Source: a virus
Virus record (IMG/VR): IMGVR_UViG_3300009786_000012
Coordinates: 1-64,000 of that record
Reading direction: 5' to 3' (one strand)
Length of the DNA stretch: 64,000 bases
The translations under genes were made by a program, and so were the position numbers. Under the pieces are notes generated by a model. It was not told the origin of the DNA and did not search any database. It saw only the letters and a list, made by a program, of their open reading frames with translations. This document shows, in pieces, positions 3,876 to 25,996 of this stretch (positions are counted from its first letter, which is position 1; every line of letters starts with the position of its first letter).

Positions 3876-4168
3876 AAAAAGTAATTTTAATTCAATATGG
3901 CGCAATGACGTTAATAGTAACAGTCGTAGACGAACATGTTGATCAATATATATGTACTAATATAATAGAAGTAAAATTCGTTGATAATAATTTAGAGTTA
4001 TCATTTCCTGCTTTTGTTAAAGCATCTAAACATGACAGATACATTTGGAAGAAGAGTGAATGTATGTGTTTTTTACCAACTGACAATTTAGCTATTGTGT
4101 ATGATGATTTATTAGAGAAAATAAAAGAACAGAATAATAAAAACCAAATAAAAAGTGAAGATGATTAG
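3872..4168 (+). CDS. hypothetical protein
   Basis: A 98-residue protein starting MKKVILIQYG. I chose ATG 3872, which overlaps the topoisomerase stop as ATGA and has AAGGAG (3854-3859) upstream, over the longer frame starting at 3851, because that earlier ATG is inside the Shine-Dalgarno region. The sequence is beta-rich in the first half and ends in a charged tail. No family is recognised. Its end overlaps the start of queD by several bases, so it is part of the same translationally coupled string. Confidence 0.7.
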   Translation: MKKVILIQYGAMTLIVTVVDEHVDQYICTNIIEVKFVDNNLELSFPAFVKASKHDRYIWKKSECMCFLPTDNLAIVYDDLLEKIKEQNNKNQIKSEDD

Positions 4169-4601
4169 AATAACTAAAATTATAGAATTTGATGCAGGTC
4201 ACAGAGTCCCTAATCATAAAAGTAAATGTAGAAATCCCCATGGTCATAGATATAGACTAGAATGTACAGTTTCAGGATATCTAAATAGCGAATCAGGCTC
4301 ATCTGAACAAGGAATGGTTATTGATTTTGGGGATTTGAAAGATGTAATGACAACATATGTACATGATGTATTAGATCATGGATTTATTTATTACGAGAAT
4401 GACAAAGAGATAGCTGAAATGTTTGAACCATTTAAGGACACATGGAATCTTATAAAAGTTCCATTTATCCCAACAGCAGAAGAATTATCAAGGTGGTGCT
4501 TTGAACAAGTCAACGACAATTTACCGCCAACTTCAGGATTAGAATTAATCAATGTAAAGTTGTTTGAAACTCCTAATTCGTGGGCGCAATATGGGATGTA
4601 G
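4161..4601 (+). CDS. queD: 6-carboxy-tetrahydropterin synthase QueD
   Basis: QueD converts dihydroneopterin triphosphate (made by FolE) to 6-carboxy-5,6,7,8-tetrahydropterin, the second step towards preQ0 and other 7-deazaguanines. The 146-residue protein has the zinc ligands H14 (DAGHRVP) and H27/H29 (PHGHRY), the catalytic-type C23 (SKCRN), a downstream LDHGF segment and a C-terminal glutamate in VKLFETPNSW. I prefer ATG 4161 to GTG 4155, which would add only two residues. The gene lies 18 kb from folE and 27 kb from queC, so the pathway genes are scattered, but all are on the plus strand. Confidence 0.92.
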   Translation: MIRITKIIEFDAGHRVPNHKSKCRNPHGHRYRLECTVSGYLNSESGSSEQGMVIDFGDLKDVMTTYVHDVLDHGFIYYENDKEIAEMFEPFKDTWNLIKVPFIPTAEELSRWCFEQVNDNLPPTSGLELINVKLFETPNSWAQYGM

Positions 4602-6012
4602 TCAAACTCTCATAAAAGATTCTGCAATTCGAATTCCAGTTGATTCCAATAAGGACAAGGAATGGTTTGCAAGAATAATTCGAGATTTGACTAGACAATC
4701 CAGGTCATATCAACAAACGGCAGATAGTGATGCTCCAAATGTTGATATTAGAAAATATTACGATACAGATAAGTCAACTCGCGAATTAATGATTCCACGT
4801 TTTTATGAACTCCCTGCAATGTTTCAGATAACAGATAGAAGTATTGCAGGGAAGGATATAAGTATAACCTCCAAGGTCGTCCCAAGAAATGAAAGACAGA
4901 AAGAGTCGATCAAGTGGTTTGAAACGAATACTAATGGTATACTATGTTTAAGTCCTGGAGAAGGAAAGACAGTAGTAAGCATCCACTCGATATGTACAAT
5001 TGGAAAAAAATCAATAATATTTGTACATAAGGACTCTTTAGCTAGTCAATGGGTCGATAAGTTTTTAGAGCATACAGATATATCGGAAGATAATATCTCT
5101 AGGCTTAGGTCTTCTTCATTTGAGGAAGATTTGCAAAAGGATATAATAATCACAACTGTTCAAACATTTTGTAGTTTGGTTAAGCGGAAGCCCCCCGAAC
5201 TAATGAAGAAGGTATTGAATGATGCACAAATTGGAATTGCTATATGGGATGAATGTCATACTTCGGTAAGTGCTGAACAGTTTTCTAGAACTTCGATTTG
5301 GATTCCATCTAAACGAATCTATGGTTTGTCTGCTACTCCAAGTAGATTAGATGGAAATACAGATATAATATATAAACATCTTGGACAGGTATACGTACCG
5401 GTTTCCTCGGGTATAGACACTATGGCACCGAAAGTGATCTTATTGAAATTTGATCATGGTGTTATGAAAAATCATAAAAATTACATTACACATCTTACAA
5501 AGTACGATCGGGATAACAATATTAAACCGTTTTTTGACACGGCTAGATATTTGAGTTTGTTAGTCAAGTCCGAGCCGTATAAAAAAGCTATAAAAAAATT
5601 GGTCATGGAAGTGTCTAAGTCGACCAGACACTTATTATTTTTGGCAGATAGAATTAAAATTTTAGATCATGCCTCGCAGGCATGTAAAAACAAAGAAGAA
5701 GTAGGTTTCTTCATCCCAAGATCGAAGAATGAGCGTGATGCTCATCTACAGCGTAGATTAGTTTTTAGTACTTATGGAAGTGCTAGAGACGGTACTAATA
5801 AAGAAATATTAGATTGTTTAATATTGGCTACTCCTGTTTCTAATTTAGAACAGGCTGTTGGGCGGGTTGTTAGATCTCATCCAGATAAACAACAACCAGT
5901 CGTAATAGATTTAGTCGATATAGGAGATGATAATTTGATCAATCGGGCAAAGTACCGGATTGGATTCTATACAGAAAAGAATTGGCAAATAGAAGAAAAG
6001 ATATTAAAATAG
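4591..6012 (+). CDS. uvsW: SF2 DNA helicase (UvsW-like)
   Basis: This 473-residue protein has the motifs of superfamily 2 helicases: Walker A GEGKT (about residues 123-127), DECH (220-223), SATP (about 247-250) and motif VI QAVGRVVRSHP (about 420). The compact two-RecA layout is like T4 UvsW, which unwinds branched recombination intermediates and R-loops and shifts replication from origin-primed to recombination-primed. ATG 4591 overlaps the end of queD and is preferred to the TTG at 4564, which would overlap more. UvsW is a likely partner of gp46/gp47 encoded at 10.5-14 kb. Family assignment is firm; orthology to UvsW is inferred. Confidence 0.85.
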   Translation: MGCSQTLIKDSAIRIPVDSNKDKEWFARIIRDLTRQSRSYQQTADSDAPNVDIRKYYDTDKSTRELMIPRFYELPAMFQITDRSIAGKDISITSKVVPRNERQKESIKWFETNTNGILCLSPGEGKTVVSIHSICTIGKKSIIFVHKDSLASQWVDKFLEHTDISEDNISRLRSSSFEEDLQKDIIITTVQTFCSLVKRKPPELMKKVLNDAQIGIAIWDECHTSVSAEQFSRTSIWIPSKRIYGLSATPSRLDGNTDIIYKHLGQVYVPVSSGIDTMAPKVILLKFDHGVMKNHKNYITHLTKYDRDNNIKPFFDTARYLSLLVKSEPYKKAIKKLVMEVSKSTRHLLFLADRIKILDHASQACKNKEEVGFFIPRSKNERDAHLQRRLVFSTYGSARDGTNKEILDCLILATPVSNLEQAVGRVVRSHPDKQQPVVIDLVDIGDDNLINRAKYRIGFYTEKNWQIEEKILK

Positions 6013-6046: not shown

Positions 6047-6655
6047 ATGTCACTAACAAAAAGTGTAAGTAATAAAGTCGTGTTGTATGTCAAGAAAAAC
6101 GAAAACTCAACCGCAACCAGAATATCCAAGGATGTACTTTTTACATCAAAGGCATCAGCATCGCTGAAGGAAGAACTGACCACATTAGTAGAAAATGGAA
6201 CGCTTTCTGTTTATAATGGTGGTCGATTTGTGACGTATTCTGCAGGAAGTGGAACCAGCGGAGTGACAACTATCAAAGCATCTAAGAAGCCCATGGTCAA
6301 GGTTGGTTCTCCTGCTTCATTGACTGCTGATACATTGTCTGGGTTTACAGCAAAGAAAAAGAGTGGACGTGTTCATGTTCACTGCCCGCCAAACAAGGCA
6401 TTTCCGAAAGGTTATAAGGTGTCTCTCGCTGACGGTGCGTATCTTTTGGTAATCAACGGCGAACCAAAGTTCAAGGTTGAGGACGCAAATGACACCCTCT
6501 CCGCGATTAGTACTTATGCCACTGAACAAGGAATGGCCTCGTTTGCTGTTTCTGATGTCAAAACTAATACCGACATTTCCGGTAAGACTGATATCGTTCT
6601 GGGTGAAGGTCGTATTCTTTCGTTGAAAGTCGGCAAAGTAAATAAAGCTGCGTAA
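6047..6655 (+). CDS. unknown protein, winged-helix-like N-terminus, GC-richer codons
   Basis: A 202-residue lysine-rich protein. Residues 1-65 have a helix-helix-helix-hairpin pattern (helices around VSNKVVLYVK and ASLKEELTTLVENG, then a beta hairpin SVYNGGRFVTY) that could be a winged helix. A Ser/Gly/Lys-rich linker follows, then a beta-rich C-terminal domain from about residue 105. Codons are richer in C and G than in the neighbours, especially from 6300 on, as in other genes here that may be strongly expressed. It is the last gene before a strong terminator. It could be an abundant DNA-binding or virion-internal protein. No family was recognised. Confidence 0.75.
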   Translation: MSLTKSVSNKVVLYVKKNENSTATRISKDVLFTSKASASLKEELTTLVENGTLSVYNGGRFVTYSAGSGTSGVTTIKASKKPMVKVGSPASLTADTLSGFTAKKKSGRVHVHCPPNKAFPKGYKVSLADGAYLLVINGEPKFKVEDANDTLSAISTYATEQGMASFAVSDVKTNTDISGKTDIVLGEGRILSLKVGKVNKAA

Positions 6656-6717: not shown

Positions 6718-8841
6718 ATGAGCAGAACACAAGAAACCCTTTCTCGTTTGTTTACCCCAGATAACCATAGAGATTATACATTTGAACGAAGATTTATAGA
6801 AAAGCTAAATAAATGTCTTTCTAAACTTTTGGTAAATGATAAATATTTAGATTTGGTAAATAATGTAGTAGTAAGAGATGTCATATCTGACGATCCAGGT
6901 GACACCCATAGGTTGAATTCATATAGTCTAGTTTATGACGAACAGCTAACCTTGGATGAATATGGTAAGTCATTAAAGATGAATCACAAGTTAGTTATAA
7001 CAAACTTTGGACTTAGTGATCTTTTAAAATATATTACATGTAATCCTAGAGTTTCACATGCAAGTATGGCTACGTCATTTTCTAAATATTTAGGAACTCC
7101 TTTAAATGATTCCGATGTGACATTTAGAAAATTATGTGTCAATATATGTCCAAATATGAGATTTAGAAATCCAGGATTTGCAAATCTTACTTCAGTTGTA
7201 AATTCAAGATTATTACAAGATATTTGTGATGTCAAAGATAGTTTAGTATCAGAGGTCTTCTTTGTTGGAACTAATTCAGTTTTAGTTGGGTTTATGTGTG
7301 TGGATGGAACCACTTATATAAAATGGCCAGTATTAAGATATTTGATGAGAAGTGGACGATCAAGAGATGTAGAAAAGGTTAATGTATTACTAGAAAACAT
7401 TCTTGATCGAATTACATTCGTTCATAATAGACTTCATGATATAGATATTAAACATTGGGAAGCTGACGGAAAAGATGAATCTATATGTAAACTTATAAAG
7501 AGATTAGAGGAATGTAAATATTCCCCATCAGATGCAGACTTTACTTTAGATTCCGAAGGGATTTTGAAAGAATTAAAACGCACTATGGCTACTGCAGAGT
7601 GGGACACAATCTATCAATCAGGGAAATCTGAAATATATGCAAGTTTATTAACCAAAGTATTAGAACGAGCTTCAAATGAAAATCGAGACAGCTCACAACA
7701 ATCGTTTCATAGAGGATTGACTATATCTGGTCTGTTAACTAAATATGGATGGGAAGTAGCTACCCATGAACGATTTAGTAGTAATTATAGATCTAATTTG
7801 TTATGGAAAAAGAAGATAGATATATTACCTGATCGATTTTTTAGAGATGGTGTTTGTAAAATAATTCCTAAAGAGTTAAGAATGTTTAGAGTAAAATGGT
7901 TATATATTAATGGAGATGGATTTTCTTTTACAGAATCCACCCATCCAAATGTATCTTCTGATGGTTCAGTATGCTTAGGTGATTTAGGAAATATTAAATT
8001 TTCTGGACCCACGGAAAAAATTGAAGAGCATTTAATAAAAATGGAATCGTTATTACAGATTCTAAATTATGATAGTGCTTATAATGAATCGTATTATCAC
8101 AAAATATTAAAGGTTAAATGCAAATCAGAATCAGAATTTCTTAAAGTATCTAAAAAATCATCTAAATCTAAAATGATTGCTATTGGTGCAGGAGATTTAA
8201 TAATAGATGATGAAAAGGATGATAATAGAGGGCTGTCTCCCTCAAGAACAATAAATGGAAAAGATGAAGTTGAAATTATTAAGGACGGCAAATTAATAGA
8301 TGTAGACGTAATTAAAGAGGCTATAGATGATAAAATTGATGTTGAAGAATTATCTGTATATATACGAATTTTAGATCAAATGCGTAATGCCGAAACTGTT
8401 TCATCATCTTTCATCTTAAACTCTGATAGAAGATTAACTTGGGTACATCCTAATGGTGTAACTGTTATAGGTGTATTTTTGCCTGATGGTTCCTACGATA
8501 GTGATAAACCTTTATATTTCTATTGTAAAAATTCATATACCCGACCAATGCTTTTTAATGATCCTGAAACTTTTGAAAAGGTGATCATGAATCTTTCATT
8601 ATTAGGTGGAGATGTCATTTGTAGGGCATGGGGATTTCTCTCAGAAACAGTAAGGAAAAAGTTTGGATTGTTATTAACTCCACCCAAAAAGAAGACTAAA
8701 GAATCTGACATAATACCTAAAGATTGGGAAAAGGAGGCATATAAGAATATAAAGGATAAAATAGTATCCGCGTCAGATTGTATACAATATATAGATAATT
8801 CACCGGACATTAGATATTCAACAAACTCAACAAACGAGTGA
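6718..8841 (+). CDS. large E2-like (ubiquitin-conjugating-enzyme-like) protein
   Basis: A 707-residue protein with a central segment that carries the E2 active-site signature: H409-P410-N411, then DGSVCLG with C419. The histidine-to-cysteine distance (10 residues) and the G-x-V-C-L context equal those of eukaryotic E2 enzymes, where the cysteine accepts a ubiquitin-like protein from E1. The preceding segment (about 335-405) is beta-rich, as expected for the E2 fold, and helices follow to about 460. The first 330 and last 240 residues are unrecognised and may hold substrate-recognition domains. The gene is followed after 6 nt by an E1-like gene and then a JAMM protease, the same company kept by bacterial E2 proteins in PRTRC and BIL-type cassettes. 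The start has no Shine-Dalgarno. Confidence 0.72.
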   Translation: MSRTQETLSRLFTPDNHRDYTFERRFIEKLNKCLSKLLVNDKYLDLVNNVVVRDVISDDPGDTHRLNSYSLVYDEQLTLDEYGKSLKMNHKLVITNFGLSDLLKYITCNPRVSHASMATSFSKYLGTPLNDSDVTFRKLCVNICPNMRFRNPGFANLTSVVNSRLLQDICDVKDSLVSEVFFVGTNSVLVGFMCVDGTTYIKWPVLRYLMRSGRSRDVEKVNVLLENILDRITFVHNRLHDIDIKHWEADGKDESICKLIKRLEECKYSPSDADFTLDSEGILKELKRTMATAEWDTIYQSGKSEIYASLLTKVLERASNENRDSSQQSFHRGLTISGLLTKYGWEVATHERFSSNYRSNLLWKKKIDILPDRFFRDGVCKIIPKELRMFRVKWLYINGDGFSFTESTHPNVSSDGSVCLGDLGNIKFSGPTEKIEEHLIKMESLLQILNYDSAYNESYYHKILKVKCKSESEFLKVSKKSSKSKMIAIGAGDLIIDDEKDDNRGLSPSRTINGKDEVEIIKDGKLIDVDVIKEAIDDKIDVEELSVYIRILDQMRNAETVSSSFILNSDRRLTWVHPNGVTVIGVFLPDGSYDSDKPLYFYCKNSYTRPMLFNDPETFEKVIMNLSLLGGDVICRAWGFLSETVRKKFGLLLTPPKKKTKESDIIPKDWEKEAYKNIKDKIVSASDCIQYIDNSPDIRYSTNSTNE

Positions 8842-8847
8842 TTTATA

Positions 8848-9615
8848 ATGACACAATCAATTTATAATATAGTTAATGATCGGGGAGAAGTACGTGACAG
8901 ACAACGATCATTAAATCTTAGAGAATATAATTGTGCACTAGTAATTGGACTTGGCGGAATAGGTTCATGGGTTGCTCTTAATTTGGCGTTAACTGGCCAA
9001 ATTAAGAAACTAGTTATGTACGATTCGGATACAATTGAAAATACTAATCTGAATAGAACGTTATTTAGAATATGTGATATTGGAAGAAATAAAACAGATG
9101 TAGTATTAGAGCTTATCCTTGAAAGAAGAATTGATATTGATATAGTTATATATAATGAAAAGTATGATGAAAACTCATTGGAAGTACTTAAGGGGAAGGG
9201 GAGTTACCCAGAGGTAGTTATAGATTGTAGAGATAATATCTTTAAAGATATAAAGCAGTTTTCAGAACATACAAAGGTTTGGAAATTAGGTTATGATGGA
9301 TTGTCTGTTACAATAGACGGAAATCCAAGACATACAACTGTAATGGGTACGAGTGCACGGGGGAATTATGATATAGTTCCTTCTTTTGTTTGCTCTGCTC
9401 AATTAGTTGCAAATTTGGTATGTAATCACATTCTAATGCCAAAATACTCATTAATTGATGATGGAAGTTTTTCATGCAATGATAAAGATAACTTATTTAA
9501 TAAACTTATAACATTTGATACAGGACGATTATTAGAAGGAATTTATTTGGGCCAGAATGTAGATCAACAACCGGTAACAGAGGAAGTGTACAATGCTAAC
9601 GACCATAAAGGATGA
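8848..9615 (+). CDS. E1-like adenylating enzyme (ThiF/MoeB/UBA family)
   Basis: This 255-residue protein has the Rossmann nucleotide loop GLGGIGS (34-40), the acidic DSD (59-61) that contacts ribose, the NLNR segment (67-70) with the catalytic arginine, and K82. Next come VIDCRDN and a possible catalytic cysteine in PSFVCSAQL. Members of this family adenylate the C-terminus of a ubiquitin-like protein and often pass it to a cysteine. It sits between the E2-like gene and the JAMM gene and overlaps the latter by 23 nt, so the three are co-translated. Stand-alone ThiF and MoeB act in thiamine and molybdopterin synthesis, but no such genes are nearby. Confidence 0.88.
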   Translation: MTQSIYNIVNDRGEVRDRQRSLNLREYNCALVIGLGGIGSWVALNLALTGQIKKLVMYDSDTIENTNLNRTLFRICDIGRNKTDVVLELILERRIDIDIVIYNEKYDENSLEVLKGKGSYPEVVIDCRDNIFKDIKQFSEHTKVWKLGYDGLSVTIDGNPRHTTVMGTSARGNYDIVPSFVCSAQLVANLVCNHILMPKYSLIDDGSFSCNDKDNLFNKLITFDTGRLLEGIYLGQNVDQQPVTEEVYNANDHKG

Positions 9616-10459
9616 ATCAGTAGATACGTCTAAAGCAGACATGAAAATAAAAAAGAGTTCGGGGGAAGTAGTTTGGAAAAATGAAAATCCTGCTCTACAA
9701 ATAATCAACAGTGTAGATGTCGTAATTCCAAGTGATTTACAGGAAGTCATGTTACAAATCCAATATGATCTTCCAGATTCTTCTGTTGAATTTGCATTGT
9801 ATTTAAAGGGTAAGGTTGTCGATGGCATATTAATGCTGGAAAATAAGTGGATGCTTCCTGAACAAGAAGTAACTGCTGCAACTATAGATTTTAAAGAAGA
9901 AGCACCAGCGGGGTTCAATGGAGTAATTCATAGACATCCTTCTGGTTGTACAAAATTCTCAGGCACCGATGATGAGTATATCAATGTTAATCATGAATTT
10001 TCTCTATTGTTTGTGAATAGAATTATTCATTCAGGTATAATTAATATTAATAGTCCAGTTGGTAGAATTCAACTACCGTTGGATATTAATATTATAAATA
10101 CTAAAAAGTTTGATCTTGATCTTGAGAAAGTTAGTAAAAAGGTCTATCAACAAAAAGCAGTTGTTCATACTGGACATTATAACTATAATTCCCATGGCCA
10201 AGTAAAGCATCAGACAGGAATGGTAGGAAACCGTGAAGATTTTCTAGGAATGAACATTCCTATTGTAGATCCCGCTGATATGTTGAGAGAAAGATTAGAA
10301 CAAGCAATGGAATCAATGGAAGATGGAAGTGCTTGTTTGCAAGATTATGTATTATTGATGGATCATGATGTCATTAGCCAAGAAGAGGCTGTAAATTCTG
10401 CGGGAATACAACACGGTGCAGATGATGACGATGACACTGAGATTCTAACACTGTTGTAA
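9593..10459 (+). CDS. JAB1/MPN (JAMM) isopeptidase-like metalloprotease
   Basis: A 288-residue protein with a complete JAMM zinc site: the upstream catalytic glutamate E66 in SVEFALY and H113-x-H115-x7-S123-x2-D126 in IHRHPSG...FSGTDDE. JAMM proteases remove ubiquitin-like proteins from targets or trim their precursors. Residues after about 190 form an uncharacterised tail ending in an acidic run (GADDDDDTE). The ATG at 9593 lies inside the end of the E1-like gene and has GAGGAAG just upstream. In bacterial conjugation cassettes the JAMM enzyme is the deconjugase, and the position here points to the same role. A DNA-repair RadC-like role is less likely given the E1 and E2 neighbours. Confidence 0.9.
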   Translation: MLTTIKDESVDTSKADMKIKKSSGEVVWKNENPALQIINSVDVVIPSDLQEVMLQIQYDLPDSSVEFALYLKGKVVDGILMLENKWMLPEQEVTAATIDFKEEAPAGFNGVIHRHPSGCTKFSGTDDEYINVNHEFSLLFVNRIIHSGIININSPVGRIQLPLDINIINTKKFDLDLEKVSKKVYQQKAVVHTGHYNYNSHGQVKHQTGMVGNREDFLGMNIPIVDPADMLRERLEQAMESMEDGSACLQDYVLLMDHDVISQEEAVNSAGIQHGADDDDDTEILTLL

Positions 10460-10515: not shown

Positions 10516-11523
10516 ATGAAAAGAATTGCCTTAGCGGATTTACATCTGTCTTGGTATAGAGATTCTAATATCCAAGAAGATGGACTACCTAAAAGATTAA
10601 GCGATCTTATTTCATTGATAAGAAAGGTTTGTGATTACGCACGAAAAGAGAAGATAAAAAATATTGATATTCTTGGCGATCTAAACCATGACAAGAATAT
10701 AATTTTTACAGACGCACAGAATGCATTCAAAGATATAATATTAGATTATTCAGATTTAGAGTTCTTGATCATATCAGGAAATCATGATTTATCTAGTATT
10801 GGTGATCATAAAACTTCAAGCATATCGGCGTTTGAAGGATATTCAAATGTTAGTTGTTATACAGAGACAATTAAATTAGATAACGTATTACTGGTCCCCT
10901 GGTCCAGTACTATGGTAGTCGATATCCTTGAGGCTGAAGCCTGTGATATTCTGTTAGGTCATTTTGGGCTATCAGAGGCGCAACTTCAGTCCGGGATATC
11001 GATTATGTCTAATTTAAACATGGGACATCTTTCAAAATTCAAACTTATTTTATTGGGTCATTATCATAAACCTCAAGAAATAAAGAATGAAACTACCCGA
11101 TTAATGTATGTGGGAAGTCCTATTCATACATCATGGAATGATAAAAATGAAGATAAACGTTTTTTAATTTATGATACTGAAACATTAGAAGTGGAAGCTA
11201 TTAAGGTGAGTGGATTTACCGAATATAGAGAGTATATATTAGATGACGATTCTGATACAAAAAAAATATTAGAAGAAGCATCTATATCTAAAGCTGATGG
11301 TCATAACGTAAGAATTAGAAAGAAGACTAAAAACAAAATTGAAGAAAATGATAACAATATCTCAGTTATTGATGAATCTGATATTATAGATATCTCTAAT
11401 CGTGGCATTGATATTTCAATGAACTGGAAAGAGAAAATTGAAAAGTATGCAGAAATAATGGAAATAACTGATCCTGAGTATATGAAATTAGCATGTGAAA
11501 GTATAGAATCTAGGGCAGAATGA
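10516..11523 (+). CDS. 47: recombination nuclease subunit (T4 gp47-like, SbcD/Mre11 family)
   Basis: This 335-residue calcineurin-type phosphoesterase has the metal-binding motifs in order: ADLHLS (D8, H10), GDLNHD (about 54-59), SGNHD (about 89) and GHYHK (about 184). With gp46 it forms the exonuclease that resects DNA ends for recombination-dependent replication and helps degrade host DNA. A purine-rich AAGGAG lies 16 nt before the ATG, longer than usual. The last 4 bases overlap the gp46 gene (ATGA), the usual coupling of this pair. Confidence 0.93.
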   Translation: MKRIALADLHLSWYRDSNIQEDGLPKRLSDLISLIRKVCDYARKEKIKNIDILGDLNHDKNIIFTDAQNAFKDIILDYSDLEFLIISGNHDLSSIGDHKTSSISAFEGYSNVSCYTETIKLDNVLLVPWSSTMVVDILEAEACDILLGHFGLSEAQLQSGISIMSNLNMGHLSKFKLILLGHYHKPQEIKNETTRLMYVGSPIHTSWNDKNEDKRFLIYDTETLEVEAIKVSGFTEYREYILDDDSDTKKILEEASISKADGHNVRIRKKTKNKIEENDNNISVIDESDIIDISNRGIDISMNWKEKIEKYAEIMEITDPEYMKLACESIESRAE

Positions 11524-14036
11524 AAAATATCCAATTTAATAAAGTAAAGTTAGTAAATTTTAGATGTCACATTGAAACAGAATTAGAATTCCCTAATAAT
11601 AAATTAGTATCTATTGTTGGACCAAATGGTAAAGGAAAGTCTTCTTATTTTATGGCTTTAATGATTGCCTTATATGGGAAAACAGCAGAAGGAATTGAAC
11701 TTCCAGATTTAGTAAATAAAAAGGAAGGGAAAAATCTCGAAGTAGAAGTAGATTTTCTAGTGGACACTGATGAATATCTAATAAAGCGTTATTATAAACA
11801 TTCTAAACATTCTAATAAGTTGTATTTGTATCTGAATGGAACTGACATTTCAGGGAAAACTACAACTGATACATATAAGAGAATAGAGCAGATTTTAGTT
11901 CCTAAACAAGTTTTTTTAAATAGTATTTATTTTTCTCAGCAAGTTAAGGATTTCTTTACGTCGTTGAATGATTCTCAACAAAAGCAAATTTTTTCATCTA
12001 TCCTACAACTTGAGGAATGGAAAAGATATAAAGAATATATAGACGAAGATTCTAAAACTCTCACTATAGAAGTTGATAATCAGAGTAGAGAGTTTGACAA
12101 AATAGAAGTTAGACTTGAAGAAAAAGAAACTCTGTTGACTGAAACATCTGCATTTATTCAGGCACAGAAAGATGATCTTGCTAATAGAATTAAAGATTTG
12201 ACTATTAGAATACCGTTAATGGAAAAGGATCTTAACGATCTTGATGAAGATAAAACAAAGAAAGATCTGGATTCTATAAATAAAAAACTAGTCCATATAG
12301 ATGTAGATATAGTTAAAATGTCAGATGAATTATTTGGATTGGAAGAAGCTAAAGAGAAGAAACAAGAGAATCTTATCAGTAAGCTAGTAAGAGAAAAAGA
12401 TGATATCTTGTCTAAAATGAAAAATGAGTTAGACACTAGTTTCTCGAATACCCGTGAAACATTGGGACAAAAGCTCACAACATTGGCTGACACATTAACT
12501 ATCTTGACAAGTCAAAAGGCGGAAGAGACTCAAACTTCTATTAAAGGATCGTTTGATAACGAATCTAAATTGAAATCTGATCTTATTGAATTGGAGAGAG
12601 GGAAGGTTCTTTTAAGTCAACAATATGATATTGAAAAAGCACGAAAGAATAAGTCAGTTAATGTATATGACATTCAAGATCAAATTGATTCTCTTATAAA
12701 GAAGTCAGAGGATCTTAAACAAGAGGCTAAAGCTCTTAATGGTGAAGTAAATGAAAAAAGGCATCAAGTCCAAATTGATTTTGATACATGTTTAATGTGT
12801 AATCAAAAGGTAGAGGACAATAGCCATAAACAACATTTACAAGAACAATCTGAATTGATTGAGAAATTAATTAATGAAAAGACTGATCGAATCGAAGCTA
12901 TAAAGGCTGAATTCTTAAACATCAAAACATTATATGCTGATTATAAACAAAAACTCATAGATGAAAATGAGAAGGTAGAGAAAGATCTTAGTACTCTCTT
13001 AGCTACAGGAGATAAAAAGAAAACAGATAATTCTACAAGTATATTAGATATTACACAACAGTTAGATATTATTATAGTTGCCAGAAAAGAAACCGATAAA
13101 GCTATTGATGAAAAATATGATATGCTAATGGATGAATGCCAAGAGAACAAGTCTAAGTTGTCTATTCAAATAGAATCTGAAAAGAAAAAACTTAAATCTG
13201 ATTTTGAAGTATTTAAAATAAAGATAGAAGATGAAATAGATATTAAATCTAAAACAGAGTCTGAAGAAATATTAAATGAGTTTCTATCATCCAAATATAC
13301 ACTTGAATCAGATTTGCTTAATATACAAGTAGAGAAAGTTGAACAGTTAGAATCTAAACTTGAAATAGAAGGAAGGACTGCTTCTATTGTTCGTCTTATA
13401 GCATCTTTAGACTTTAATCGAAATGAGCTTTATACGTTGGAAGAAGATACTGATATAGATGAATCTAAATTAGATTCTGTAAAGAGTGAATTAAATGAAT
13501 TGACAGTTGAAAAAAATAATTATGCCGCTTCTATAAAAAAGGGAAATAAAAAACTGGAAGTTTATAAGTTTTGGAAAATTGCATTTTCTGATAAAGGAAT
13601 ACCGTCGATGTTAATTGATGGATCTATTCCTTTTATGAATAAGACAATTCGTGAGGAACTAACAAAGATTGCACCAGGTAAATTTATAGTCTCGTTTGAT
13701 ACCCTATCTGAAACAAAAGGTGGAGATATCAGAGAGAGATTTTCTGTGAATGTATTGAATACAGAAACAGGGGCAGATAGTCATAAGTTATTATCTGGTG
13801 GGGAAAAACGTCAGATTGATGTTTGTTGTATGATGGTATTACGAAAGTTAGTTGAAAATCTATATGATAAATCATTTAATATTATTTTACTGGATGAAGT
13901 ATTAGACAGTCTTGATTCTGCTAATTCTTCTACTTTTTGTCAGAATTTAAAAGCGTTAGCAAACAATAAAAACATTACATTGATTACACACTCTTATACA
14001 CAAGACGCTGAGAGTGATGTGGTTCTGAGTATTTAA
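11520..14036 (+). CDS. 46: recombination nuclease ATPase subunit (T4 gp46-like, SbcC/Rad50 family)
   Basis: An 838-residue SMC-like ATPase. Walker A GPNGKGKSS is at 34-42, two long coiled coils flank a zinc hook CLMC (C424, C427), and the C-terminus has the ABC signature LLSGGEKRQ and Walker B IILLDEVLDSLD (about 790). The protein dimerises through the hook and drives the gp47 nuclease with ATP. It is longer than T4 gp46 (560 residues), mainly because of the coiled coil. All catalytic motifs are intact. Confidence 0.94.
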   Translation: MKNIQFNKVKLVNFRCHIETELEFPNNKLVSIVGPNGKGKSSYFMALMIALYGKTAEGIELPDLVNKKEGKNLEVEVDFLVDTDEYLIKRYYKHSKHSNKLYLYLNGTDISGKTTTDTYKRIEQILVPKQVFLNSIYFSQQVKDFFTSLNDSQQKQIFSSILQLEEWKRYKEYIDEDSKTLTIEVDNQSREFDKIEVRLEEKETLLTETSAFIQAQKDDLANRIKDLTIRIPLMEKDLNDLDEDKTKKDLDSINKKLVHIDVDIVKMSDELFGLEEAKEKKQENLISKLVREKDDILSKMKNELDTSFSNTRETLGQKLTTLADTLTILTSQKAEETQTSIKGSFDNESKLKSDLIELERGKVLLSQQYDIEKARKNKSVNVYDIQDQIDSLIKKSEDLKQEAKALNGEVNEKRHQVQIDFDTCLMCNQKVEDNSHKQHLQEQSELIEKLINEKTDRIEAIKAEFLNIKTLYADYKQKLIDENEKVEKDLSTLLATGDKKKTDNSTSILDITQQLDIIIVARKETDKAIDEKYDMLMDECQENKSKLSIQIESEKKKLKSDFEVFKIKIEDEIDIKSKTESEEILNEFLSSKYTLESDLLNIQVEKVEQLESKLEIEGRTASIVRLIASLDFNRNELYTLEEDTDIDESKLDSVKSELNELTVEKNNYAASIKKGNKKLEVYKFWKIAFSDKGIPSMLIDGSIPFMNKTIREELTKIAPGKFIVSFDTLSETKGGDIRERFSVNVLNTETGADSHKLLSGGEKRQIDVCCMMVLRKLVENLYDKSFNIILLDEVLDSLDSANSSTFCQNLKALANNKNITLITHSYTQDAESDVVLSI

Positions 14037-24976: not shown

Positions 24977-25996
24977 ATGGACGATTTATTAGGAAAAATT
25001 GATATTAATTTAGTGAAACAGAAATTTCCTGTTTCTATTGACAACGTAAAAAGGATTAGATCATTTAGACAAAGTGTTTCTAGAAAATTTAAAACTCGAT
25101 TTTATGAGTTAGAACCAGATTGGAGAACAAAAGAATTTAACTGGCTTAGTACCCATCAATATAAGAATTTTGATTTGTGGTTTGATAAAGAATTAATAGA
25201 TTATAAAAAACATAGTAAGTTATTATGTAGATATCTTAATGGTAAATTTGATGAATGGTGGGATCCTGATAAATATGATTGGGAGAATTACTCTTCTGAT
25301 TTAGCTTTTTCTTTATCATCTAAATTTGATGAATGGTGGGATCCTGATAAATATGATTGGAAGTATGGTAGTTCGGCATTAGCATCTGGATGTAGGAGCC
25401 ACTTTAATACGTGGTGGGATGAAAATAAGTTTAACTCGCAATCGTTTATGTCATTAGTAACTAGTTGTTCGGGGCAGTTTGATATCTGGTGGAAGCCCGA
25501 GAAACTAACAAAATGGCAATGGAATCGTATTAGTGAAATTATGCCAATGTCTTATCCTAGTAAGTTTACTACATGGTGGGACCCTGAGAAGTTTGTTTAT
25601 TCTACTGATGTAATGTATTACTTGTTTTCGTATTGTTTGGAATATTTTGATGATTGGTGGTTACCCGAGAGAATACCCACAAAATGGTGGAAGACTCAAT
25701 CTCACTGGTTAGCAGCAAATCATCCAGATCTATTTGATAAGTGGTGGGATAAGAAAAAGTTTAATTATGGACAGAACCATTGCTCATATCCTTGTGATCG
25801 TGGGAGTAATCGACCTGTCGGTCGTCATGGTCTCATGAAATACTGTTCTGGGTATTTTAATAAGTGGTGGGATCGTCAACGAATAAGGCCCAATAATGAA
25901 AATTTTCGACATTTGGAAAACTATTGTAACGAGCATTCCAATATGTGGGCATCCGATTTAATAATATTTAAAATAGCAACAGAGGGATCAGTGTGA
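24977..25996 (+). CDS. WWD-repeat protein
   Basis: A 339-residue protein made of about eight imperfect units with the core F(D/N)xWWDPxK, for example FDEWWDPDKYDW, FTTWWDPEKF and FDKWWDKKKF. Units are about 26-40 residues apart and each probably forms one or two short helices capped by the aromatic motif. I chose ATG 24977 since the longer frame from 24866 would overlap the preceding gene by more than 100 nt. The N-terminal 60 residues are repeat-like but degenerate. The final codons overlap the next gene's GTG start. Tandem tryptophan-rich repeats suggest binding of a polymer or protein surface, but I know no function for this repeat. Confidence 0.8.
   Translation: MDDLLGKIDINLVKQKFPVSIDNVKRIRSFRQSVSRKFKTRFYELEPDWRTKEFNWLSTHQYKNFDLWFDKELIDYKKHSKLLCRYLNGKFDEWWDPDKYDWENYSSDLAFSLSSKFDEWWDPDKYDWKYGSSALASGCRSHFNTWWDENKFNSQSFMSLVTSCSGQFDIWWKPEKLTKWQWNRISEIMPMSYPSKFTTWWDPEKFVYSTDVMYYLFSYCLEYFDDWWLPERIPTKWWKTQSHWLAANHPDLFDKWWDKKKFNYGQNHCSYPCDRGSNRPVGRHGLMKYCSGYFNKWWDRQRIRPNNENFRHLENYCNEHSNMWASDLIIFKIATEGSV
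25244..25360 (+). repeat. 39-bp exact direct repeat inside the WWD gene
   Basis: Bases 25244-25282 and 25322-25360 are identical over 39 bp, 78 bp apart. They encode KFDEWWDPDKYDW twice. Since other units have diverged, this pair reflects a recent in-frame duplication of one 26-residue unit. Confidence 0.9.

Follow-up and report, generated by a model that had tools for sequence, protein, structure and literature searches.

To our knowledge, the prokaryotic gene sets so far described for the conjugation of ubiquitin-like proteins (Ubls) are cellular or plasmid-borne, and several of them defend against phages. The PRTRC cassettes of mobile elements cluster the genes of an E1, an E2-like protein, a JAMM protein and a Ubl. 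In the BIL system, as set out in parts of PMC11354881, BilA has two Ubl domains, the E2 BilB has a CEHH active site (a cysteine followed by Glu at +6, His at +8 and His at +13) and BilD has both an inactive and an active adenylation domain. The 2006 survey of prokaryotic Ubls, in the parts concerned (PMC1779556), deals with bacterial operons and, for phages, with the TAPI-TAPK tail set of lambda and T1, and the main text of a survey of 224 jumbo phages makes no mention of JAB, ThiF, E1-like or Ub-like proteins (PMC7824862). This work concerns a stretch of 64,000 nucleotides (the window) that sits within a 64,517-base virus record (IMG/VR IMGVR_UViG_3300009786_000012) and carries a cassette of four genes, encoding a candidate Ubl, an E2-like protein, an E1-like adenylating enzyme and a JAMM metalloprotease-like protein. 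Judged by its sequence, the cassette appears to be a real, conserved and virus-borne variant of Ubl-conjugation cassettes with a predicted activity, more complete than an earlier reading of the same DNA, made without database searches (the sequence-only reading), had seen.

The reading favoured here, which we consider probable, is that the cassette provides a complete, virus-encoded and reversible ubiquitin-like conjugation pathway within a replication block. It is based on the gene set, on its motifs and their conservation, on the gene order shared with one relative and on a homologous modifier whose model has a beta-grasp fold. The sequence-only reading correctly placed the E2, E1 and JAMM open reading frames (ORFs) at 6718-8841, 8848-9615 and 9593-10459, all on the + strand; the extent it gave to the cassette, 6718-10459, holds for these three genes and leaves out the fourth, at 6047-6655. 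Its view of the trio as a likely Ubl-conjugation system is strengthened by the joint occurrence of the three genes in other viral contigs and by the candidate modifier that adjoins them. The entire window is contained in the 193,518-base contig G001 (IMGVR_UViG_3300027847_002834), and the two are taken to be identical or nearly identical viruses because long pieces are 99.94-100% identical.

The 707-residue protein (6718-8841, + strand) is E2-like and may have a UBC fold. It has the HPN motif and catalytic cysteine of active E2s at canonical spacing (H409-P-N411...G416..C419), within a conserved part at about residues 328-458. The eukaryotic spacing claimed for this HPN...GSVC motif is borne out by alignment, as HPNVSSDGSVC (409-419) pairs without gaps with HPNVYADGSIC of human E2 B (1jas; phmmer E=0.013 over a 142-residue segment); the best phmmer match is 7wlh (E=0.0068), and the matches are eukaryotic E2s whose active sites align without gaps. 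Pfam UQ_con matches residues 405-465 with E=2.9e-4 and 20.9 bits, under the Pfam cut-off of 27, and the best 60 of 204 matches of the E2 family profile to the PDB are all E2s or E2 fusions (top E 6.6e-5). H409, N411, G416, C419 and G421 are invariant in all nine aligned family E2s, with P410 replaced by Cys in two of them (L032 and L033). A non-conserved C419 had been named beforehand as a finding that would speak against an E2, and the invariance of this residue in 9/9 homologues excludes it. The two large flanks (1-327 and 459-707) have no family assignment in Pfam, in agreement with the earlier description, and blastp finds no similarity between the flanks of the window protein (6718-8841) and those of the E2 of a syntenic relative (L101, 8857-10581), the E1s of the two being 46% identical.

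Six bases downstream lies the gene of the E1-like adenylating enzyme (255 residues, 8848-9615, + strand), which has RQ at residues 18-19, GLGGIG at 34-39 and NLNR at 67-70 and matches Pfam ThiF (PF00899) with E=5.4e-22 and 78.5 bits (cut-off 28.1). The E1-type domain proposed from GLGGIG and NLNR is thus a ThiF domain with the GxGGxG and NxNR motifs of the E1/ThiF proteins, and G34, G36, G37, N67, N69 and R70 are invariant in 8/8 aligned E1s. In a midpoint-rooted tree of 22 rows, the eight viral family E1s separate with support 98/96 from the other 14, which comprise those of the Flavobacterium phage FpV4, two crAss-like phages, a second ThiF of the viral contig G002, L086, L094 and eight bacterial genomes; long branches are flagged for V092, L094 and L029, and L022 was left out because its E1-like protein diverges too far. 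The second ThiF-like gene of G002 (L029 4569-5240) lies about 15 kb from the cassette of that contig.

The JAMM metalloprotease-like protein (288 residues, 9593-10459, + strand), whose gene overlaps that of the E1 by 23 bases, carries the full motif that had been read from its sequence (E66, H113, H115, S123 and D126), in the arrangement E...HxH-x7-S-x2-D of JAMM/JAB proteins. These five residues are invariant in 8/8 aligned relatives, the window counted, with a spacing one to two residues longer in some. The protein has no meaningful match in the model libraries searched, and is 29% identical to the JAMM protein of G002 over 130 residues (E=9e-10). With E2 motif residues kept in 9/9 and JAMM residues in 8/8 sequences, the motifs are not due to chance, and that explanation was rejected.

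The fourth gene, an ORF of 202 residues (6047-6655, + strand) immediately 5' of the E2 gene, encodes a candidate Ubl with the tail -KVNKAA and a candidate Ubl domain at about residues 121-202. Its N-terminal extension has no Pfam match and is winged-helix-like as judged by eye only. When 1,401 non-identical six-frame ORF segments of at least 40 residues from G001 and the window, some of them near-duplicates, were searched with a profile of eight modifiers from related loci (window excluded), this ORF ranked first with E=8.3e-5, the next segment having 1.7. A four-sequence profile gave E=1.4e-4, a value equalled by 0/5,000 shuffles, and hhalign of three modifiers against the 202-residue protein was weak, with a probability of 8.3% and E=0.0041.

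A small cassette gene is present in 8/8 other family loci read. It lies directly 5' of E2 in G002 (85 residues), L032 and L033 (93 residues each), before E2 in L088 (75 residues) and G010 (199 residues), near E2 in L083 (93 residues), before E1 in L090 (103 residues) and between JAMM and a 330-residue ORF in L092 (170 residues). The tails are -NKAA in the window and G010, -NEAA in L088, -DEAG in G002, -DEAGL in L032 and L033, -DIAG in L083, -YEAK in L090 and -SGAKN in L092. The L090 homologue, modelled from a nine-row alignment that includes the window sequence, reached a mean pLDDT of 71.1 and a pTM of 0.53, the other four models having 56-62, and shows a beta-beta-alpha-beta-beta topology with a loose C-terminal tail. 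Among its 718 Foldseek matches at E<=10, the top 50 are all ubiquitin-like folds on reading, led by the parkin Ubl, ubiquitin and a bacterial Ubl and including SUMO, NEDD8, ISG15, UBX and CIDE-N. On this modelling, the family of the 202-residue protein is probably, though not provenly, a beta-grasp modifier.

All four genes are found in eight viral contigs (this virus, G010, L088, L090, L092, G002, L032 and L033), a count in which this virus and the L087/L092 pair, which share the same E2 and E1 segments, are each taken once and the JAMM gene of L088 is cut by the locus end. An E2-pattern scan of viral contigs returned two loci, one of them this virus, and a relaxed version returned 11, comprising seven of the family (L020, L021 (= this virus), L087, L088, L089, L090 and L092), two other E2 sets (L086 and L094) and two chance matches. 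A JAMM-pattern scan added L032 and L033, whose E1s are 89% identical to each other; an earlier one had led to L022, a distant set, and to one unrelated gene in three records (L023-L025). The E1-pattern matches L084 and L085 and the E2-pattern matches L091 and L093 were dismissed as chance. Scans for close relatives returned the same virus only, and in tblastn searches of 50,697 phage records the window E2 had no match at E<=0.01, nor were there matches for the window JAMM, the 202-residue protein, or the E2 and JAMM of G010. In genomes, the E2 pattern was found at 46 loci, of which 39 have planctomycete record titles. Part of the cassette family may be archaeal, the only hint being L062/L083 (titled Desulfurococcales archaeon, virus-like by eye), where an E2 and a modifier-like ORF are present and the contig ends before any E1.

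Two of the more distant loci have features of their own. L094 (3186-4148 of the locus, IMGVR_UViG_3300047585_000208) combines an E2-like motif and a long Cys-rich, zinc-finger-like stretch in one ORF, which may be a viral fusion of E2 and E3 and adjoins an ORF of 1,337 residues whose HxH...D motif is JAMM-like and a ThiF-like ORF of 320 residues. L022 (4433-9228, 272-kb contig IMGVR_UViG_3300026484_000007) encodes a JAMM-motif protein of 584 residues and, by eye, an NNVCTGS protein of 337 residues and an E1-like Rossmann protein of 378 residues, with no meaningful match in Pfam.

The 321-kb relative G010 preserves the gene frame of the window, apart from inserts. There, a topoisomerase II small subunit, a PTPS/QueD-like gene (weak match, E=0.002), a helicase and several inserted ORFs precede a cassette in the order modifier, E2, 107-residue ORF, E1 and JAMM, which is followed by SbcD, two small ORFs and, by eye, an SbcC-like ORF. 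In L089, SbcD (39% identity) is located 3' of the cassette, followed by two small ORFs and an ORF that is SbcC-like by eye. Between the window and G010, identity is 44% for the helicase, 39% for SbcD, 46% over 197 columns for E1 and 35% over 186 columns for JAMM; for E2 it is 29% and confined to window residues 328-458, and for the modifier it is 25%, not significant alone (E=0.52). By this comparison the E2 flanks and the modifier are the most divergent parts, a pattern that involves no test of selection and would fit target recognition or conflict.

Several observations weigh against a conjugation pathway. The 202-residue protein ends in Ala (-NKAA) and lacks the C-terminal Gly-Gly of ubiquitin-like modifiers, and its detection depends on the profile used: without G010 it still ranks first, but with E=0.0089 and 2/5,000 shuffles equalling it, an early three-sequence profile gave E=0.24 (rank 1 of 1,851 segments, duplicates included) and an early four-sequence profile E=0.96 (rank 3 of 1,401, equalled by 11/5,000 shuffles). 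Modelled from its single sequence, the protein reaches a pLDDT of 33. None of the 718 Foldseek matches of the L090 model is at 0.001 (best E 0.0099), and its VIA Z scores do not exceed 7.3 (Raf RBD, SUMO1, UFM1), which possibly reflects a common arrangement, the absence of a family from the VIA list carrying no meaning. The modifier profile did not find the ubiquitin family among PDB sequences and has no match to human ubiquitin (E=0.33). UQ_con is sub-threshold in five and absent in two of the seven family E2s scanned, those of L033 and L092 not being among them. None of the 26 matches at E<=10 of the JAMM profile to the PDB is significant (best E=0.25); seven are JAMM-type, including the top four (BubCD, STAMBP twice and sst2; E 0.25-1.2), and 19 are prostaglandin synthase. 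The viral E1s also lack the conserved catalytic cysteine of thioester-forming E1s: no cysteine is invariant in the eight aligned E1s (C127 in 5/8, C192 in 4/8 and C182 in 1/8), so that an E1 thioester is doubtful.

The missing cysteine lowers confidence in conjugation and raises that of a sulfur-carrier pathway, in which the E1 would turn the small protein into a thiocarboxylate donor of the ThiS/MoaD kind, serving the thiolation of, for instance, tRNA or nucleotides, and JAMM would be the processing enzyme. In NCBIfam the E1 matches ThiF/MoeB models best, and a nucleobase-pathway gene (PTPS/QueD-like) lies upstream, both of which suit such a carrier. An invariant H-x-N...G..C E2-type protein in 9/9 aligned loci does not, and nor do a modifier tail other than Gly-Gly and the lack of any Pfam match to a rhodanese or sulfurtransferase domain in the four window proteins, and we regard this explanation as unlikely. 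The phmmer matches of the E1 also include MccB (1.8e-10) and PaaA (1.8e-9), which, together with E2 flanks of no assigned family, would accommodate an E2-like protein that is a scaffold or binder and no conjugating enzyme, in a set that modifies peptides or small molecules as MccB does. A scaffold need not retain an active-site Cys, His and Asn, however, and these are invariant in 9/9 E2s, making this explanation very improbable.

Bacteria reportedly tag phages, as Hor et al. are said to have described in 2024, and the cassette might instead serve counter-defence, JAMM stripping host BIL/Bub-like tags from phage proteins, or the modifier competing with them, with conjugation by the phage being secondary. 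Borgs carry many JAMM-fold deSAMPylase-like proteins, which have been proposed, in parts of PMC12660748, as a possible answer to host tagging. A lone remover would suffice for this purpose, yet E1, E2 and modifier are kept alongside JAMM in the eight viral contigs; we consider counter-defence as the main role quite unlikely.

For the favoured conjugation pathway, we infer all chemical steps, the target and the role. The E1 would use ATP to adenylate the C-terminal alanine of the 202-residue modifier, which would then be passed to C419 of the E2, either directly from the adenylate or via a cysteine that the family does not conserve. Because none of the E1 cysteines is retained throughout, the transfer may be direct. 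The E2 would attach the modifier to amino groups of targets, which its large and fast-changing flanks may select instead of an E3, and JAMM would remove the modifier again, or trim it. Conjugation of an Ala-ended modifier has precedent, because the CBASS cGAS proteins conjugated by Cap2 end in Gly or Ala, that of E. cloacae in Ala (parts of PMC10097602). The genome place, with topoisomerase II, helicase and SbcCD, suggests a role in genome replication or host takeover and not in the virion. A bolder extension, which we hold to be rather unlikely as a whole, is a virus-specific lineage of complete Ubl-conjugation systems in large tailed phages and in other viruses possibly infecting archaea, where the E2 flanks would be a built-in E3 and the winged-helix-like N-terminus of the modifier would place tagging at viral DNA, controlling replication or host takeover.

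Among the top-ranked open-licence literature, preprints excluded, no paper was seen to describe a complete cassette of Ubl, E2, E1 and JAMM encoded by a virus. If true, a complete and conserved virus-borne set would reverse the picture of cellular Ubl sets acting against phages, and viruses of microbes may operate a protein-tagging pathway of their own. It would also offer a small four-protein model for the origin of ubiquitin-like tagging, and a way to study target choice by an E2 without an E3 and what the virus gains by it.

The cassette is located between the helicase and SbcCD genes of the window. Upstream, a PTPS/QueD-like gene (4155-4601, + strand; Pfam PTPS, 7.7e-34) is followed by the DNA helicase gene (4564-6012, + strand; ResIII, 8e-19), and downstream are the genes of an SbcD-like nuclease (10516-11523, + strand; Metallophos_2) and an SbcC-like ATPase (11520-14036, + strand; AAA_23). 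The virus has genes of large-genome phages, including topoisomerase II subunits, two RNA polymerase beta-type subunits, DNA ligase, large terminase, baseplate wedge and a virion structural protein. A tblastn search with its terminase gave matches in 2,564 phage records, and identity is 25-28% for the 15 that were listed, from Synechococcus, Flavobacterium and Microcystis phages. Twelve tRNA genes lie at one end of the G001 contig (1-20000, L009), together with a predicted tmRNA, the latter suggesting a bacterial host. Two 46-base stretches of the window (25243-25288 and 25321-25366) align also to displaced positions in G001 (95.7%), a hint of a local direct repeat at 25243-25366.

Compared with known systems, the cassette lacks those defining features of BIL, PRTRC and CBASS Cap2 that were tested. 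CBASS Cap2/Cap3 has in common with it E1 and E2 chemistry plus a JAB protein, and substrates ending in Gly or Ala; however, Cap2 is a single protein with both E1 and E2 and has cGAS as its substrate, whereas the cassette has separate genes and a small modifier. CBASS membership was rejected on the separate E1 and E2 ORFs (6718-8841 and 8848-9615), and PADLOC gave E1-E2 matches for the cassette E1 only and none for the E2. A tail-assembly role of the TAPI/TAPK kind, with a Ubl beside JAB/NlpC, was likewise rejected, as Pfam shows no NlpC and the cassette, placed between helicase and SbcCD, is no tail set.

The sets of planctomycete chromosomes are similar in having an E2 of the HPN...VCLG type, which in many loci is close to ORFs with E1 and JAMM motifs, but their E1-motif ORFs are mostly of about 400 residues, their JAMM-motif ORFs are often larger and the four E1s tested all lie outside the viral cassette group of the E1 tree. 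In crAss-like and Flavobacterium phages, a JAMM-motif protein and a ThiF homologue also occur in the replication region; the E1s of these phages are in the other part of the tree from the viral cassette E1s, and in eight proteins of two phages there was no UQ_con match and no HPN-Cys E2 was seen. In FpV4, the crAss-like cr128_1 and DAC15 (L004, L005 and L006), these two genes form a conserved four-gene cluster, X, JAMM-motif protein, ThiF and Y, near primase and mostly annotated as hypothetical. The ubiquitin cluster of the archaeon Caldiarchaeum, like the cassette, brings together a Ub-like protein, E2, E1 and deubiquitinase; according to parts of PMC11354881, it also has a RING E3, its E1 bears the cysteine on a separate domain, and archaeal SAMP E1s lack the eukaryotic catalytic-Cys domain. 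Neither the RING E3 nor the separate E1 cysteine domain is seen in the viral cassette.

The sequence-only reading had likened the trio to PRTRC and BIL, an analogy that holds at the level of components and does not extend to membership. As in the cassette, E1, E2-like, JAMM and Ubl genes are clustered in PRTRC, but the models differ: the family search that had been suggested gave 27.2 bits for the PRTRC ThiF model TIGR03736 on the E1 (cut-off 144.75) and no match at E<=1 between the other NCBIfam PRTRC models and the E2, JAMM or 202-residue proteins, and PRTRC membership was rejected. BIL membership was rejected on the absence of CEHH and of a double-domain E1, and no double Ubl was seen. C419 is followed by LGDLGNIKFSGPT, with Asn, Lys and Thr at +6, +8 and +13, the 255-residue E1 has a single ThiF stretch in place of two adenylation domains, and where BilA has tandem Ubls the profile shows one candidate domain (about 121-202), after an N-terminal part with no Pfam match and a low-confidence model. 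BIL (BilABCD) resembles the cassette in its four components, Ubl, E2, E1 and JAB/JAMM, and the cassette differs in its single candidate Ubl domain, its HPN-Cys E2 and its 255-residue E1, and in being encoded by a virus.

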